Assembly: GCA_944384505.1 (NCBI GenBank)
Contig: CALWTQ010000027.1
Location: forward strand, 1-44,505
Direction of reading: 5' to 3'
Length of the DNA stretch: 44,505 nt
Source of the DNA: an uncultured Mediterraneibacter sp.
Lineage (GTDB): Bacteria > Bacillota > Clostridia > Lachnospirales > Lachnospiraceae
The stretch's first letter is position 1. Each line of letters starts with the position of its first letter. The notes beneath the pieces were generated by a model. It saw only the letters and a list, made by a program, of their open reading frames with translations. It did not search any database and had not been told where the DNA came from. The translations under genes were made by a program, and so were the position numbers. This document shows, one piece after another, positions 1-33,228 of this stretch.

Positions 1-475
1 AAATGGGGCTGTTTTCTGGGCTTTTTCAAACCGGGAGTCAGTGAATATATAGCTGCTACGAGAAGCAGGCGCGGCCGGAAGACTTTCGCAGTCGAAATCC
101 TACAAGCCGCGCCAACTTCACAGTTCAGCCCATTTAGGCAATGACACTTCCAACAGGAAATGCGCAGGAAGCGGATCGGATGGTTTGAGTATACTTTCTG
201 GGGAAGGGGGCAGCCGGAAGATGTGACTTTGGAGGAATCCGCTGAAAATCTTAAGGACGATGAGATGTTGTTAAGCGGCGCGCAGGGATTGTCTGAGCGT
301 CAGCGAGTTGCCCGGAGCGCCGCTTTGCCTTTAAACATCTCTTCGGCCTGTTAGATTTTCCGGATTCTGGAACGGAACATCGCACGGCTGTCCCCTTTCA
401 CAGAATACGTATCGCAAACCATCCGCTCCGCTTCCGAACGTGTTCCTCAGAAAGAGTTATTGCGCTAAATAGCTG
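1..475 (+). repeat. Large intergenic repeat, copy A (3' part; continues left of window)
   Basis: Non-coding repeat. From position 1 it matches, in opposite orientation, the second half of copy C (25529-26293), and its last part matches copy B (4651-4974). Visible parts in order: a conserved stem GGCGCGGC (68-75) pairing with GCCGCGCC (106-113), a block with GACACTTCC and GCAGGAAGCGG, a long stem-loop (235-367), a block CAGAATACGTATCGCAAACC shared with B, and the terminus GTTATTGCGCTAAATAGCTG (456-475). A possible 64-codon reading frame inside it follows the stem-loop and is not considered a gene. The left end lies outside the window. Confidence 0.75.
235..367 (+). other. Long stem-loop inside repeat copy A
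   Basis: Nested paired arms: GAATCCG (235-241) with CGGATTC (361-367), GAAAATCT (244-251) with AGATTTTC (353-360), GAGATGTT (262-269) with AACATCTC (334-341), and AAGCGGCGC (273-281) with GCGCCGCTT (317-325). The apical part holds TGTCTGAGCG and GCGAGTT. Copy C has the same architecture with different arm bases that still pair, which argues for selection on structure (RNA or extruded DNA). Confidence 0.75.
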
Positions 476-4371: not shown

Positions 4372-4402
4372 TAATCGAAAAATATATTTCCTTTTTTCTG
4401 AG

Positions 4403-4474
4403 AGGCGCAGACGAGATTTGAACTCGTGAATCAGGGTGTTGCAGACCCACGCCTTACCACTTGGCTACTGCGCC
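4403..4474 (-). tRNA. tRNA-Cys (GCA), copy 1
   Basis: A 72-base cloverleaf on the minus strand: acceptor GGCGCAG/CTGCGCC with discriminator U, D stem GCC/GGC, anticodon loop CTGCAAC with anticodon GCA, and T arm ACGAG-TTCAAAT-CTCGT. The outermost anticodon-stem pair is a T-T mismatch. CCA is not encoded. It is identical over all 72 bases to the copy at 33106-33177. It is transcribed alone from the promoter at 4592-4620. Confidence 0.95.
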
Positions 4475-4591
4475 TTAAGTCATCCGCACTTAGCAGTCGT
4501 CTCTGGCCGTTTGCGTGCGATCAATACCGCCGCATTTATCAGACGGCTGCGGATATGTGCTCCACTATTATTATAGTTTTGCACTTTAAAA

Positions 4592-4650: not shown

Positions 4651-4974
4651 TTTAAGTTCACTAATGTCCGGATGTAAAACGTCCGAAAACAGGGGCTATT
4701 TCTGAGACGTATTCTGCGGGGATGGAGGACGGCGCGGCCAGAAGACTTTCGCAATGGAAAGCCTACAAGCCGCGCCAAACTGCACTTTACAGCTCTGTTT
4801 AGGGCAGTGACACTTCCGTCTGGGAATGCGCAGGAAGCGGAGCAGACGGCTTGAGTATACTTTCTGGGGAACGGAACATCTCCCAGCTGTCCCCTTTCAC
4901 AGAATACGTATCGCAAACCATCCGCTCCGCTTCCGGACGTGAGTCACAGGAATTGTTATTGCGCTAAATAGCTG
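4651..4974 (+). repeat. Large intergenic repeat, copy B (internally deleted)
   Basis: The left part (AAGTTCACTAATG, then ACGTCCGAAAACAG and ACGTATTCTGCGGGGATGGA) matches the right end of copy C read in reverse. It then joins directly to the conserved stem GGCGCGGC (4731-4738)/GCCGCGCC (4769-4776), followed by GACACTTCCGTCTGG, GCAGGAAGCGGAGC, and CAGAATACGTATCGCAAACC shared with copy A. It ends in GTTATTGCGCTAAATAGCTG (4955-4974), the same terminus as copy A. The long stem-loops of A and C are missing. The right end overlaps the last codons and stop of the MATE gene. Confidence 0.75.
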
Positions 4975-7461: not shown

Positions 7462-8521
7462 GTGCTTCCTCCTCAAACTGGTCCGGATCAATACCCAAAA
7501 TCCTGCATGCATTCTTATAATAAACTTTCCGCAGAATCTCCGTATTCAACCCGATACCGTAGATTTCCCATCTGCCCTGTCCCGGCAGTTCATCATCCGG
7601 GTGATACGGGAAATATTCATCCTCCGTCTCCAGAAAGCGATAGTATATTTTATGATATCCCATGCTCAGCGGCGTGGAATCCGTACCAAACACAATCTGA
7701 TCCTGACAGTTTCTAAAAAATCTTCGTGCGCTGTAGGGTGCTCTGCCCAGCTCCGCCACCCGTGCCGCAATATCCACGTTCATATTCGGATATTTCTTAA
7801 GCTGCTCCTCGACCCATCCCAGATCTTCCGCGCAGCTTCCGACATGCGCCACAATAAACACTGTCTTCGGATGATTCCGGATGACATTTTCCTGCATTTC
7901 CATCAGCTCTTCAAAGCTCATATACTTTGAATGATCCGAAAAGTCCCACTCAGGCATCTCGTGAAGCTCTTCCCAGCGCTCGTTCGTCTCATCAGCCGGC
8001 ATGAAAAACGCCTTCGGATCCGCGATGTGCATCAGAATCGGAATGCCAAGCTCCGCGGCTGTATCGTAGACCGCATCAAATCTCGGATCATCCATACGGA
8101 GCGGATCTCCGTTTTTATCTTTCTTATACAGGGCGAGATCTTTCCACATCTTAATCCCTTTGCATCCCCTTCGGTGCGCCGCTTTAATCTGACGCCTGAT
8201 ATCCTCTGCAAATCCAGGCGTATCATAGCCGGAATAATCCAGCTGCATAAAATGAATAAACCGCTTTTCAAAACCGGCCGTCTTCTGTCTAAGCGCCCGC
8301 AGGTCCTCCCCGCCATAACCATCCATGTCCACAGCGAGGGCAACCCCGCTCTTCGTCAGTTCCCGCACATATTCCGCCGTATCGTATTTCTCCGCATAAT
8401 CGTCACCCAACAGCATCTTTCCCATGTGAGTGTGGAAATCAATCACCGGAAACGCCGGCTTCTCAACCTGCGTCTTCTTCAGTACCGCCGCACAGACAGG
8501 CCTGAAATCCTGTAATTCCAT
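7439..8521 (-). CDS. Amidohydrolase family (amidohydrolase_2) metal-dependent hydrolase
   Basis: A 360-residue TIM-barrel enzyme. Metal-ligand signatures are in order: VIDFHTHMG (His-x-His, first strand), ILMHIADP (His), FIVAHVGS (His) and IVFGTDSTPL (Asp). This is the PF04909 pattern, which contains lactonases, decarboxylases of the ACMSD type and other hydrolases. No signal peptide is present, so it is cytoplasmic. The start ATG 8521 has AAGGAGG upstream; an earlier ATG at 8545 precedes that site and is rejected. It lies between the permeases and the kinase of the GH4 operon, so it probably acts on a breakdown product of the imported glycoside, for example opening a lactone or removing a side group; this is inference. 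Confidence 0.82.
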   Translation of the reverse strand: MELQDFRPVCAAVLKKTQVEKPAFPVIDFHTHMGKMLLGDDYAEKYDTAEYVRELTKSGVALAVDMDGYGGEDLRALRQKTAGFEKRFIHFMQLDYSGYDTPGFAEDIRRQIKAAHRRGCKGIKMWKDLALYKKDKNGDPLRMDDPRFDAVYDTAAELGIPILMHIADPKAFFMPADETNERWEELHEMPEWDFSDHSKYMSFEELMEMQENVIRNHPKTVFIVAHVGSCAEDLGWVEEQLKKYPNMNVDIAARVAELGRAPYSARRFFRNCQDQIVFGTDSTPLSMGYHKIYYRFLETEDEYFPYHPDDELPGQGRWEIYGIGLNTEILRKVYYKNACRILGIDPDQFEEEAHGTLSEC

Positions 8522-8557
8522 CCTGCCGCCTCCTTTCTGTCTCATTCTAACAGCGAT

Positions 8558-24931: not shown

Positions 24932-25522
24932 ATGAATACTTTAAAAGCTGAAAAAAGAGACCTGACAATTAAAGCCAAAAAACTTAGAAGAGAAGGATTT
25001 GTTACTGGAAACCTCTTCGGACGCGAGATGAAAGAATCTATCCCGCTTAAGATGGAGAAGGGTGCCGTAGACCGTCTGCTGAAAGAAGAAGGCAAAGGCG
25101 GAAGAGTCCGCCTGGAAGTTGACGGACAGACTTTCGATACCCTGATCAAAGAGGTGGATTATAACGCGATGAAGGGATGGGTTGATGAGATTGATTTCCA
25201 GGCGCTGGTAAGCACTGAGAAAGTTCACTCATCCGCTGAGATTCACCTGATCAACGCAGATAAACTTGTTGCCGGAGTTCCGCAGCAGATGCTCCATGAA
25301 GTAGATTTTAAAGCTCTGCCGTCCGCACTGGTTGAGAAGATCGAACTGGATATCGGCGATCTGAAAGCCGGCGATACGATCCGCGTGAAAGATCTTGACA
25401 TCGCAAAAGATAAAGACGTAGACCTGACCACAGATCTCGAAGCAACCGTTGTCACCGTAACAGAAGTAAAGGCAGCGGCCGCTGAGACAGATGAAGAAAC
25501 CGAAGAGACTGCGGCAGAATAA
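24932..25522 (+). CDS. rplY: 50S ribosomal protein L25/general stress protein Ctc
   Basis: A 196-residue L25 of the long Ctc type. The N-terminal L25 domain (~1-90) binds 5S rRNA (LKAEKRDLTIKAKKLRREGF, typical start), followed by the TL5/Ctc C-terminal beta domain (VPQQMLHEVDFKALPSALVE, DIGDLKAGDTIRVKDLDI). The tail is acidic (ETDEETEETAAE), common in the family. GGAGG lies nine bases before the ATG at 24932. Single gene, no partner pth beside it, bounded downstream by repeat C. Confidence 0.95.
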   Translation: MNTLKAEKRDLTIKAKKLRREGFVTGNLFGREMKESIPLKMEKGAVDRLLKEEGKGGRVRLEVDGQTFDTLIKEVDYNAMKGWVDEIDFQALVSTEKVHSSAEIHLINADKLVAGVPQQMLHEVDFKALPSALVEKIELDIGDLKAGDTIRVKDLDIAKDKDVDLTTDLEATVVTVTEVKAAAAETDEETEETAAE

Positions 25523-25636
25523 AAACAGCAGCTATTCAGTTCACTAACACCTTCCATTAAAATGTGTCCGGAAGCGGAACAGATATTTTGTAACGCGTAT
25601 TCTGATGAAGGGAACAGGAGTACCATGCTTCGTTCC

Positions 25637-25784
25637 GGAATCTGGGAAGAATCTAAGAAGCCGAAGAGTTGTTTAACAGCAAAGCGGTACGCCGGGGAAC
25701 TCGTTTCACTCAGACACCCCCGCCGTACCGCTTAACAACACCTCTCCGCCTTCTAAGATCTTCCAACAGATTCCTCCAAAGGCG
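25637..25784 (-). other. Long stem-loop in repeat C, homologous to that of copy A
   Basis: Outer arms GGAATCTG (25637-25644) and CAGATTCC (25777-25784), then TTCTTAGAT-type and GAAGAGTTGTT-type arms, then AAGCGGTACG/CGTACCGCTT around a loop that reads TGTCTGAGTGAAACGAGTT on the minus strand. Compared with copy A, arm bases differ on both sides in a way that keeps pairing (GAATCCG/CGGATTC becomes GAATCTG/CAGATTC; GGCGC/GCGCC becomes GGTAC/GTACC). Confidence 0.75.
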
Positions 25785-26064
25785 CATGTCCCTCCTGTTC
25801 CCTCCCTCAGATCATACGCTCAAAATATCCGCTCCGCTTCCTGCTCATTTCCAGACGGAAGTGTCACTGCCCTAAACAGAGCTGTAAAGCGCAGTTGGCG
25901 CGGCTTGGAGACTTTCCATTGCGAAAGTCTTCCGGCCGCGCCTTACTTCTGGAAGCTATATATTCACTGACATCCGATTTAGAAAGCCCAGAAAACAGCC
26001 CCATTTCGAGAAAGATTCTGCGGGGATGGAGGATGGCGACGGGCGCCTTCGAAAGGGAATTAGT

Positions 26065-26179
26065 GAATCTTGAAGTTGCGGTTACGGATGTTGGGCCAGC
26101 CGGGGAGACTTGTCTGAGCGAAGCGAGTTGCTCCCCGGCTGGCCCTGCTTTTAATCCGTGGCCGGAACTTCTTAGATTC
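26065..26179 (+). other. Second long stem-loop in repeat C
   Basis: Arms GAATCT (26065-26070)/AGATTC (26174-26179), GAAGTT/AACTTC, ACGGAT/ATCCGT, and a 15-base GC-rich stem GGGCCAGCCGGGGAG/CTCCCCGGCTGGCCC. The loop is TGTCTGAGCGAAGCGAGTT. It is the third stem-loop of the family, in the opposite orientation to the one at 25637-25784. The loop includes GCGAAGC, known as an unusually stable DNA mini-hairpin. Confidence 0.75.
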
Positions 26180-26296
26180 CCTTATTTCCTGGAGCGAAGC
26201 CCTGAGCCGTCCTCCATCCCCGCAGAATACGTCTTAGAAACAGCTTCTGTTTTCGGACGTTTTTCCAAAGGGCGTTAGTGAACTAAATAGCCGCCC

Positions 26297-27970
26297 CTAC
26301 TTATACCAGATCACAGCCTCATATGGCCTCATCCTCAGCCCCTCGCTGCCATTCTCTCCGCAGCGCTCCGGCTCTCCTTCGTAATTTCCAAGCACCTTCT
26401 TAAATCCTTCCAGATCCGGCGCGTTTTTCCACTCGTACTCTTTCCCATAGAAGTTCGCGGCCACAATCATTTCATGCCCCTCATAAGTTCTACGGTATGC
26501 GAACACAGACGGATCTTTCTGCGCCAGCGGCTCGATATCTCCATAAGGAATCACATCCAGCTCTTTTCTCAGTGCGATCAGCTTCTGATAATAATGGAAT
26601 ACGGAATCCTCATCTTTCAACTGATCTGCCGCATTGATCTTCGTATGATTTCCATTTACGCCGATCCATGGCTCTTTGCTGTCCTCGGCTGAGAATCCTG
26701 CATACTTTGTATCATCCCACTGCATTGGAGTACGTCCGTTGTCACGGGAGTGAACCTGTACAATACGCAGAGCATCGGACGGGGACATTCCCTTATCCTG
26801 CAGGATTTGATAATGATTCAGGCTTTCTACGTCTTTAAACTGCGAAATGTCTGTAAAGTCTGTATTCGTCATTCCCAGCTCTTCCCCCTGATAGACATAC
26901 GGGGTTCCGCGCAGGCCGTGGATGATTGTTCCCAGCATTTTCGCGGACTCTTTCCAGTACTTTCCTTCATCCCCAAAACGGGATACCACACGGGGCTGGT
27001 CATGATTGCACCAGAATACTGCGTTCCATGCATTGTGCTCCGCCATGCCTGTCTGCCACTGGAAGATAATATCTTTGAGTTTCTGGAAATCTGCCGGAAC
27101 AAGCACCCATTTTTCATTTCCCATAAAGTCCACTTTCAGATGATGGAAACTAAATACCATGGACAGCTCGCCCGTGTCATGTCCCGCATACTGGTAGCAG
27201 TTTTCGATGGATGTGCTGGACATTTCTCCCACTGTCACGATCTGAGCATCAGTTCCGAATGTTGTATCGTGAAACTCTTTCAGATACTGATGGATCTTAG
27301 GCCCGTCCGTATAATATTTTCTTCCGTCCCCTGTTTCATCGTCCTCAATGGCCGCTTTGCTGATCAGATTGATTACGTCGAAGCGGAATCCTTTTACGCC
27401 CTTTTCCATCCAGAAACGGACGATCTTCTGGATTTCCTTTCTCACGTTTTCATTTTCCCAGTTTAAGTCCGCCTGGGTCACATCGAAGAGGTGAAGGTAA
27501 TATTCGTCAAACTTCTCTACATATTCCCACGCGCTTCCGCCAAACTTACTCTCCCAGTTTGTAGGAGCGCTGCCGTCCGCTTTCCCTCTGCGGAAGAAAA
27601 AGAAATCTTTATAGTACGGATCTCCCTCCATGGCCTTCCTAAACCACTCATGGCGCGTAGACACATGGTTGAACACCATATCAAACATCAGACCCATGCC
27701 GCGTTTGTCCGCCTCTGTAATCAGCTCTTCTACGTCTTCCATTGTTCCATATCTCGGATCAATGTTGTAGTAATCCTCTACATCATATCCGTTGTCATTC
27801 TGAGGAGATACGAAGAACGGGGTCAGCCAGATATAATCCACGCCAAGCTCTTTAATATAGTCCAGCTTCTCAATTACACCGCAGAGGTCTCCAAGGCCGT
27901 CCTTGTTGGTGTCACAGAATGACTTCGGGTAAATCTGGTATACTGTGCTCTTTCTGAAATCTTTGCTCAT
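26297..27970 (-). CDS. treC: Alpha,alpha-phosphotrehalase (GH13)
   Basis: A 557-residue cytoplasmic hydrolase splitting trehalose-6-phosphate into glucose and glucose-6-phosphate. The N-terminal VYQIYPKSFCDTNKDGLGDL and the (beta/alpha)8 barrel are typical of the oligo-1,6-glucosidase/TreC subfamily. The catalytic regions are GFRFDVINLI (nucleophile Asp), VTVGEMSS (acid/base Glu) and FWCNHDQPRVVSR (transition-state Asp). DNGRTPMQWDDTKYAGF is also conserved. Subfamily members include plain alpha-glucosidases; the assignment to trehalose-6-phosphate rests on the adjacent trehalose-type PTS gene and treR. It follows the PTS gene by 21 bases and ends 4 bases before repeat C. Confidence 0.92.
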   Translation of the reverse strand: MSKDFRKSTVYQIYPKSFCDTNKDGLGDLCGVIEKLDYIKELGVDYIWLTPFFVSPQNDNGYDVEDYYNIDPRYGTMEDVEELITEADKRGMGLMFDMVFNHVSTRHEWFRKAMEGDPYYKDFFFFRRGKADGSAPTNWESKFGGSAWEYVEKFDEYYLHLFDVTQADLNWENENVRKEIQKIVRFWMEKGVKGFRFDVINLISKAAIEDDETGDGRKYYTDGPKIHQYLKEFHDTTFGTDAQIVTVGEMSSTSIENCYQYAGHDTGELSMVFSFHHLKVDFMGNEKWVLVPADFQKLKDIIFQWQTGMAEHNAWNAVFWCNHDQPRVVSRFGDEGKYWKESAKMLGTIIHGLRGTPYVYQGEELGMTNTDFTDISQFKDVESLNHYQILQDKGMSPSDALRIVQVHSRDNGRTPMQWDDTKYAGFSAEDSKEPWIGVNGNHTKINAADQLKDEDSVFHYYQKLIALRKELDVIPYGDIEPLAQKDPSVFAYRRTYEGHEMIVAANFYGKEYEWKNAPDLEGFKKVLGNYEGEPERCGENGSEGLRMRPYEAVIWYK

Positions 27971-33096: not shown

Positions 33097-33105
33097 CCCT
33101 CAGAG

Positions 33106-33177
33106 AGGCGCAGACGAGATTTGAACTCGTGAATCAGGGTGTTGCAGACCCACGCCTTACCACTTGGCTACTGCGCC
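33106..33177 (-). tRNA. tRNA-Cys (GCA), copy 2
   Basis: 72-base cloverleaf identical to the copy at 4403-4474: acceptor GGCGCAG/CTGCGCC, anticodon GCA, discriminator U, no encoded CCA. It follows tRNA-Glu by 51 bases in the same transcript. Confidence 0.95.
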
Positions 33178-33228
33178 TTGAGTATAATATGAGCACTTAG
33201 CGCCCATTCTTTGGTCGCTTACGTGCAA

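Follow-up and report, generated by a model that had tools for sequence, protein, structure and literature searches.

The stem-loop at 26048-26192 of the window, by which we mean the whole 44,505-nucleotide stretch of DNA analysed here, is part of a dispersed, mobile-looking repeat that is common to several bacterial phyla. The window makes up contig C27 in a genome of 3.95 Mb and contains one complete copy of this repeat, an element of 765 bp with two large hairpins. Its copies are numerous, have discrete ends and are absent from the compared loci of relatives; their stems covary, their mismatches favour one strand, and their loops fall into a few classes. The best reading, to which we give a probability of about 0.5, is a non-autonomous mobile repeat resembling BIMEs and MITEs, one DNA strand of which would fold as a giant hairpin and be read in single-stranded form. 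We infer that the element moves as single-stranded DNA and that one class of enzyme reads its tip.

Anatomy and copies of the element

The complete element fills the gap between the stop codons of rplY/ctc and of an alpha-amylase gene (neighbouring genes assigned by Pfam), starting 6 bp past the first and ending 3 bp short of the second (Table 1). Its left end deviates from the consensus end of the genome, and the final bases of its right repeat are CG, not TG. The two hairpins are divergent, A lying on the minus strand and B on the plus strand; the stem-loop first described at 26065-26179 forms the inner portion of B. The fold of hairpin A reaches further out on both sides of its core and the outer stem of hairpin B spans about 26015-26228, so that the stems continue towards the inverted terminal repeats. 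For the 226 nt at 26010-26235 the fold scores z = -12.5 when treated as DNA and z = -13.5 when treated as RNA, and none of 200 shuffles was as good in either case.

Table 1. Coordinates of the element, its parts, its neighbouring genes and its other copies in the window
Feature	Position	Strand	Basis
rplY/ctc (ribosomal L25/ctc) gene	24932-25522	+	Pfam
Complete two-hairpin element, 765 bp	25529..26293		ends and size measured
Left terminal inverted repeat, CAGCTATTCAGTTCACTAAC	25529..25548	+	end seen in the sequence
Hairpin A core	25634..25780	-	covariance model (126.2 bits), folds
Hairpin A conserved tip, TGTCTGA-GTGAAAC-GAGTT	25698..25716	-	motif match, fold
Small central inverted repeat separating hairpins A and B	25897..25944		repeat family, inverted pair
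Hairpin B core	26048..26192	+	covariance model (138.5 bits), inverted repeat, folds
Hairpin B conserved tip, TGTCTGA-GCGAAGC-GAGTT	26111..26129	+	motif match, fold
Right terminal inverted repeat, read as GTTAGTGAACTAAATAGCCG from the + strand	26274..26293	-	end seen in the sequence
Alpha-amylase gene, convergent	26297-27970	-	Pfam
Hairpin of second element copy	228..371	+	covariance model (122.6 bits)
Degenerate third element copy, both hairpin tips gone	about 4652..4974		repeats; right end 4955-4974 by end pattern

A sequence-only reading of this DNA had described three stem-loops of one design, and all three exist: hairpins A and B and the hairpin of a second copy, which is truncated by the start of the contig and has its tip at 290-309 (+) and its right end, by the end pattern, at 456-475. 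A covariance model based on 24 copies, among them these, matches exactly these three stem-loops of the window, the sole further match being the opposite strand of hairpin B (35.4 bits). The paired stem changes named at that time, and the change of the mini-hairpin from GCGAAGC to GTGAAAC, are present in the sequence. Two points of that description need amending: the stem-loop drawn at 25637-25784 belongs to the minus strand, and the stems extend far past the limits given to them. In the degenerate copy, which the covariance model does not match, both hairpins are shortened, as if deletion had trimmed palindromes. Elsewhere in the window, two tRNA-Cys genes (4397-4480 and 33100-33183) show 98% identity across 84 nt, a stretch that takes in a few bases on the flanks.

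The search for further copies, which had been set beforehand as a test that could refute the structure, found many. The motif TGTCTGAGYGN{0,8}CGAGTT occurs 178 times in the genome of the window and its backwards pattern never; the consensus end GTTAKTGNRCTWWATAGCTG has 271 exact matches and its reversed control none. Because the length of the mini-hairpin varies, a fixed-spacing form of the motif matches only one of the three hairpins in the window. Many contigs of this genome end no more than a few hundred bases from a hairpin (for example C1:69-88, C26:91-110 and C27:1-475), so that the copy numbers are probably too low and the repeat breaks the assembly.

Forty complete copies, with both ends recognised at no more than two mismatches per end, were measured. 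Their size is 758-771 bp in 37 cases, 548-549 bp in two and 403 bp in one. Abutting direct repeats of at least 4 bp, as expected of a target-site duplication, flank none of the 40, and repeats of 1-3 bp are at shuffle level. Nor are the two flanks of each copy more complementary to each other than shuffled flanks, so the stem is part of the element and not of the site; the same measurement led us to reject the ideas that the element inserts into hairpins already present or that its arms are duplicated target sequence. The outward flanks lean towards (T/A)AC at positions 1-3, with A in 45/80 at position 2 and C in 36/80 at position 3, possibly a weak target preference. Close hairpin pairs (within 1200 bp, 38 distinct) are divergent in 31 cases, convergent in 4 and in the same direction in 3. 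Outside this genome 9 of 15 pairs are divergent, in Marinobacter, Herminiimonas, Gallionellales and others, and all three pairs of Luteimonas are convergent.

At the ctc locus, 22 of the 23 relatives' loci examined out of 29 (mostly 3.3-3.6 kb each) lack the exact motif, and the remaining one, L251, has it upstream of the gene. At a second locus, in genome G118, the motif is absent from all six congeners even with three mismatches allowed. When a 20-kb stretch of contig C40 was compared with six relatives of about 75% identity, a segment that is inverted and some of the breaks in synteny coincided with elements; at least one break, near 8350-8530 of locus L276 in genome G374, has no element. 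At 18246-18695 of L276 two elements enclose a gene segment whose orientation is reversed with respect to several related genomes, as recombination between copies of the element could produce. As the relatives are only about 75% identical, no clean empty site can be read at base level, and this tells against a mobile element. Not all copies are recent insertions, since two Marinobacter records keep a hairpin pair at an orthologous locus. In the first hairpin of this pair the stem differs at three positions where both arms have changed and still pair, and there is one uncompensated change; in the second, the pair adjacent to the tip is changed on both sides and pairing is lost.

Stem covariation and the folded strand

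Covariation was measured in an alignment of 24 copies, made up of the window's three hairpins and 21 others among the 65 counted in its genome. Of the 45 base pairs in the consensus structure predicted from it, 33 have two-sided changes. Pairing is found in 95.7% of cells, against 73.4% after shuffling, and 278 cells are changed on both sides against 94, a number reached in none of 500 shuffles; structures slid along the alignment pair in only 40-49% of cells. The number of further pair types does not exceed that of the shuffles (63 vs 66.8), which counts against the best reading. Five families, each analysed separately against its own predicted structure, all point in the same direction: 96.4% pairing against 75.1% in the control for 64 copies of the window's genome, 98.2 against 92.9% for G326 (7 copies), 97.5 against 95.3% for G347 (6 copies), 91.0 against 78.4% for G080 (13 copies) and 96.0 against 79.7% for G118 (4 copies). 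Mismatched, asymmetric internal loops are conserved along with the tip. In these larger alignments the covariation first noticed in three stem-loops thus far exceeds what shuffling or sliding yields, so that the structure also passes the second test set beforehand as able to refute it. A conserved loop on a covarying stem had been taken as the signature of a recognised structure; conservation and covariation both stand, and recognition by a factor is a step of inference beyond them.

The mismatches within the stems indicate which strand folds. When the arms were aligned with wobble-blind scoring, 146 of 234 hairpins passed a score of 60, and their isolated in-stem mismatches comprise 209 G.T and 73 A.C. 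With one hairpin per locus in a cross-phylum set, 42 G.T and 15 A.C were counted in 41 loci (p = 0.0005), and a laxer cut gave 74 and 34 in 88 loci. Both types would be equally frequent without selection and G.T is about three times commoner; therefore the strand bearing TGTCTGA is the folded form. Three small groups have no clear G.T excess when taken alone (G.T:A.C of 2:3 in G261, 3:3 in G046 and 3:2 in G118), and this weighs against the best reading.

Of the tip loops in 181 distinct hairpins whose stem has 7 bp or more, 116 are triloops, 52 are tetraloops and 13 are of neither kind; many of these hairpins share ancestry, so that the counts are not independent. Given the G that the locus search pattern forces at the first loop position, 111 of 112 G-first triloops are GNA and all 50 G-first tetraloops are either GNNA (29) or GNAB (21), with GNRA in only 14 of the 50. 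DNA mini-hairpins in which a GNA or GNNA loop sits on two G-C pairs are described as extraordinarily stable (PMC4686876), and tetraloops of the GNNA and GNAB classes are able to form stably in DNA (PMC8373063, citing a 2002 study). Since the tips belong to these classes, single-stranded DNA is favoured over RNA. The earlier suggestion that the structure is recognised in that form gains support from both the loops and the strand bias, and the tip is probably read as single-stranded DNA; the G.T bias and a stable loop would fit RNA as well.

Spread across genomes and phyla

The distribution of the motif within the genus is patchy, with 33 of 58 genomes positive (that of the window included) and up to 60 copies per genome apart from the latter. 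In a sample of the family it is present in 24 of 299 genomes, again with the window's own genome included, the reversed control giving three single matches. A scan of GTDB genomes found it in at least 120 stretches. Among the matches listed in genome contigs, 81 of 116 of 19 or 20 nt, but 3 of 20 of other lengths, top a stem of at least 7 bp; the corresponding figures for the matches listed in viral contigs are 2/21 and 0/100. Altogether, such a stem accompanies 84 of 136 listed matches in genome contigs against 2 of 121 in viral contigs, where the motif matches are essentially chance. The covariance model, run on 30 of 120 viral contigs, gave four weak matches (best E 0.006). An origin from phage or plasmid was rejected, as a 731-bp query had no match in either collection and viral motif matches had a stem in only those 2 of 121 cases.

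In 24 genomes picked for at least one copy, the motif occurs 1 to 52 times per genome and the controls never, with 52 copies in Clostridium peptidivorans, 23-28 in three Marinobacter genomes, 12 in a fourth and 18 in Rufibacter sediminis. Judged by eye, the stems in those genomes have no sequence in common with the stems of the window. Bacillota, Bacteroidota and Pseudomonadota have the identical tip on stems that are unrelated, as a rule in multiple copies, and one tip on wholly different stems in several phyla points to a candidate factor that recognises the tip. Within the genus, genome G331 has stems and a loop that closely match those of locus L179 from an uncultured Mediterraneibacter. 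Genome G326 has another pair of terminal inverted repeats (alignment read by eye). The covariance model from 24 copies also matches, outside the window's genome, 64 of 68 loci at E <= 1 and 43 at E <= 0.001, many of them at full length; these loci were picked for carrying the loop, which itself adds to the matches. It further matches partner hairpins that lack the exact motif, for example at 3395-3536 of L209 and 3354-3501 of L216.

Proposed mode of spread and alternative explanations

A mechanism for the element can be proposed in outline. The strand with TGTCTGA...GAGTT would fold into a giant hairpin whose tip would be a GNA, GNNA or GNAB mini-hairpin flanked by two GA steps, and a putative enzyme, supplied in trans, would read this tip together with the conserved asymmetric internal loops. 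The stems would be a mere scaffold and therefore free to change while pairing holds. Insertion would take place without target duplication, and copies would settle in intergenic spacers. A wider proposal, plausible although we would rather bet against it, is a previously undescribed, cross-phylum class of single-stranded DNA hairpin transposons, in which one enzyme family other than RAYT reads the universal tip TGTCTGA-[GNA/GNNA/GNAB mini-hairpin]-GAGTT and the bulges. Stem sequence would be irrelevant to the enzyme, so that each lineage could evolve its own stems and ends.

A structured RNA would account for several of the same observations, the transcribed element either acting as a non-coding RNA or spreading through an RNA copy and a reverse transcriptase. 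Strong covariation, the excess of G.T (G.U) over A.C on one strand and the conserved internal loops all suit it, and we consider it unlikely while still giving it serious weight. However, the element corresponds to no Rfam family: only tRNAs matched in the window, in 11 further loci the sole match was a SAM riboswitch at a distance from the hairpin, and matches at the hairpins were none at gathering score, the weak ones being far below. Its orientation shows no clear bias with respect to neighbouring genes, GNRA is scarce among the tetraloops, of which GAAT, GGAT and GAAC belong to the DNA-stable GNAB class, and the 1-kb region has one promoter-like match where shuffles average 0.4 (sd 0.7). 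A role as transcription terminator or as stabiliser of mRNA 3' ends, in place of ordinary terminators, is suggested by the many copies close behind stop codons and by two loci where, by eye and in folds, several relatives have a terminator-like hairpin at the place of the element in the window's genome or in G118. We hold it to be very improbable, because the element has no terminator-like match (a T tract after a stem), the sole one in the 1-kb region being inside the upstream gene and at shuffle level, because orientation does not clearly favour the strand of the upstream gene, and because a terminator needs neither a 19-nt tip conserved across phyla nor 400-770 bp.

The covariation itself might be mutational and not selected, if template switching between the arms (quasi-palindrome correction) keeps a drifting repeat paired. 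Three neighbouring compensated changes in one Marinobacter stem could indeed be a single templated event, and such switching may well contribute to the joint change of the two arms. As the full explanation it is rather improbable: mismatched internal loops and the tip persist and are not corrected away, symmetric correction predicts no excess of G.T over A.C on the tip strand, and the identity of the tip across phyla is left unexplained. Slighter still is the chance that these are repeats of the REP type that a RAYT or another Y1 (HUH) transposase mobilises, in spite of the hairpins, their inverted pairing, the intergenic placement and the lack of target duplication, all of which resemble REP/BIME. 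The genome does have one RAYT-like gene, of 255 aa, at locus L184, where the hairpin motif is absent. Yet PF01797 is present in only 9 of 20 hairpin-bearing genomes, frames of RAYT size (at least 250 aa) are equally frequent in genomes with the motif (8/16) and without it (8/16), and the motif is absent from the 50 Y1 loci of other genomes that were examined (20 loci, L186-L205, and 30 loci, L476-L505). Furthermore, the inverted repeats beside RAYT-like genes in the genus are separate ones, of the GGGGACGTAGTAAAAT / ACTACGTCCCC type, and differ from the hairpins; such repeats were seen at L184 around 1099-1866 and at L492, L494-L496 and L498-L501. On this co-occurrence and flank evidence a RAYT or Y1 transposase was rejected as the mobiliser.

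Against a mobile element stands the failure to find a mobilising enzyme for it. Clustering of the open reading frames at 120 loci of the GTDB scan gave no gene that travels with the hairpins at a common distance, and the clusters that recur beside them are ordinary families such as ABC transporters. No autonomous copy and no parent insertion sequence was seen among the first 100 listed of the 271 ends. Two divergent hairpin pairs enclose a gene, namely an orphan frame of 157 aa that matches nothing in Pfam, in Gallionellales (L123, 4005-4942), and an LRR/BspA-type gene in Bacteroidales (L143, 3380-6753); neither pair contains a transposase.

Known systems share parts of this picture. REP/BIME families, such as those tagged GTAG or CGTC, are dispersed intergenic palindromes of high copy number, often in inverted pairs, in which folding of a strand matters and which are mobilised in trans by current thinking (PMC3733652). 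They differ in being 20-40 bp long and not 400-770 bp, in conserving a tetranucleotide tag where the element conserves a tip common to several phyla, and in their link to RAYT genes, none having been found for the element. The loop classes of the tips are those of d(GCGNAGC), GNNA and GNAB mini-hairpins, which have been studied as model oligonucleotides, whereas the element is a genomic family (PMC4686876, PMC8373063). Like MITEs, the element is short and non-coding, with terminal inverted repeats, many copies and no gene; unlike them, it has structured hairpins with covarying stems and, in 40 copies, no target-site duplication. Integron attC sites and IS200/IS605 hairpins are single-stranded DNA hairpins read by their structure, with bulges and free stem sequence, and by analogy the element may be of the same kind. 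In attC, conservation lies in the core boxes at the base and spares the loop, whereas the element conserves the loop, and in contrast to IS200/IS605 no association with Y1 was found.

We found no description of the element in the text of the open-access literature, a search that covered neither figures and supplements nor closed papers, and core strings of the hairpin had no match there. The 10-mer TGTCTGAGCG occurs in open-access papers that are, among those listed, unrelated by title, and TCTGAG is absent from the accessible text of PMC3733652 and PMC2267715. If the mobile reading is right, this would be a widespread class of repeats, with up to 178 motif copies per genome, that has a conserved recognition element and no known enzyme, and an oligonucleotide of the folded tip would offer a ready assay to fish out a new recombinase that binds single-stranded DNA. 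The copies would also provide a natural data set on the persistence and co-evolution of long palindromes in bacterial chromosomes, and would explain assembly breaks and some rearrangements near them.

Two of the five Y1 loci of the window's genome, both of IS200 type, lie within or adjoining elements; sequence comparison shows that their TnpA genes (L182, 1456-1884; L183, 1468-1782) were inserted into copies of the hairpin element.
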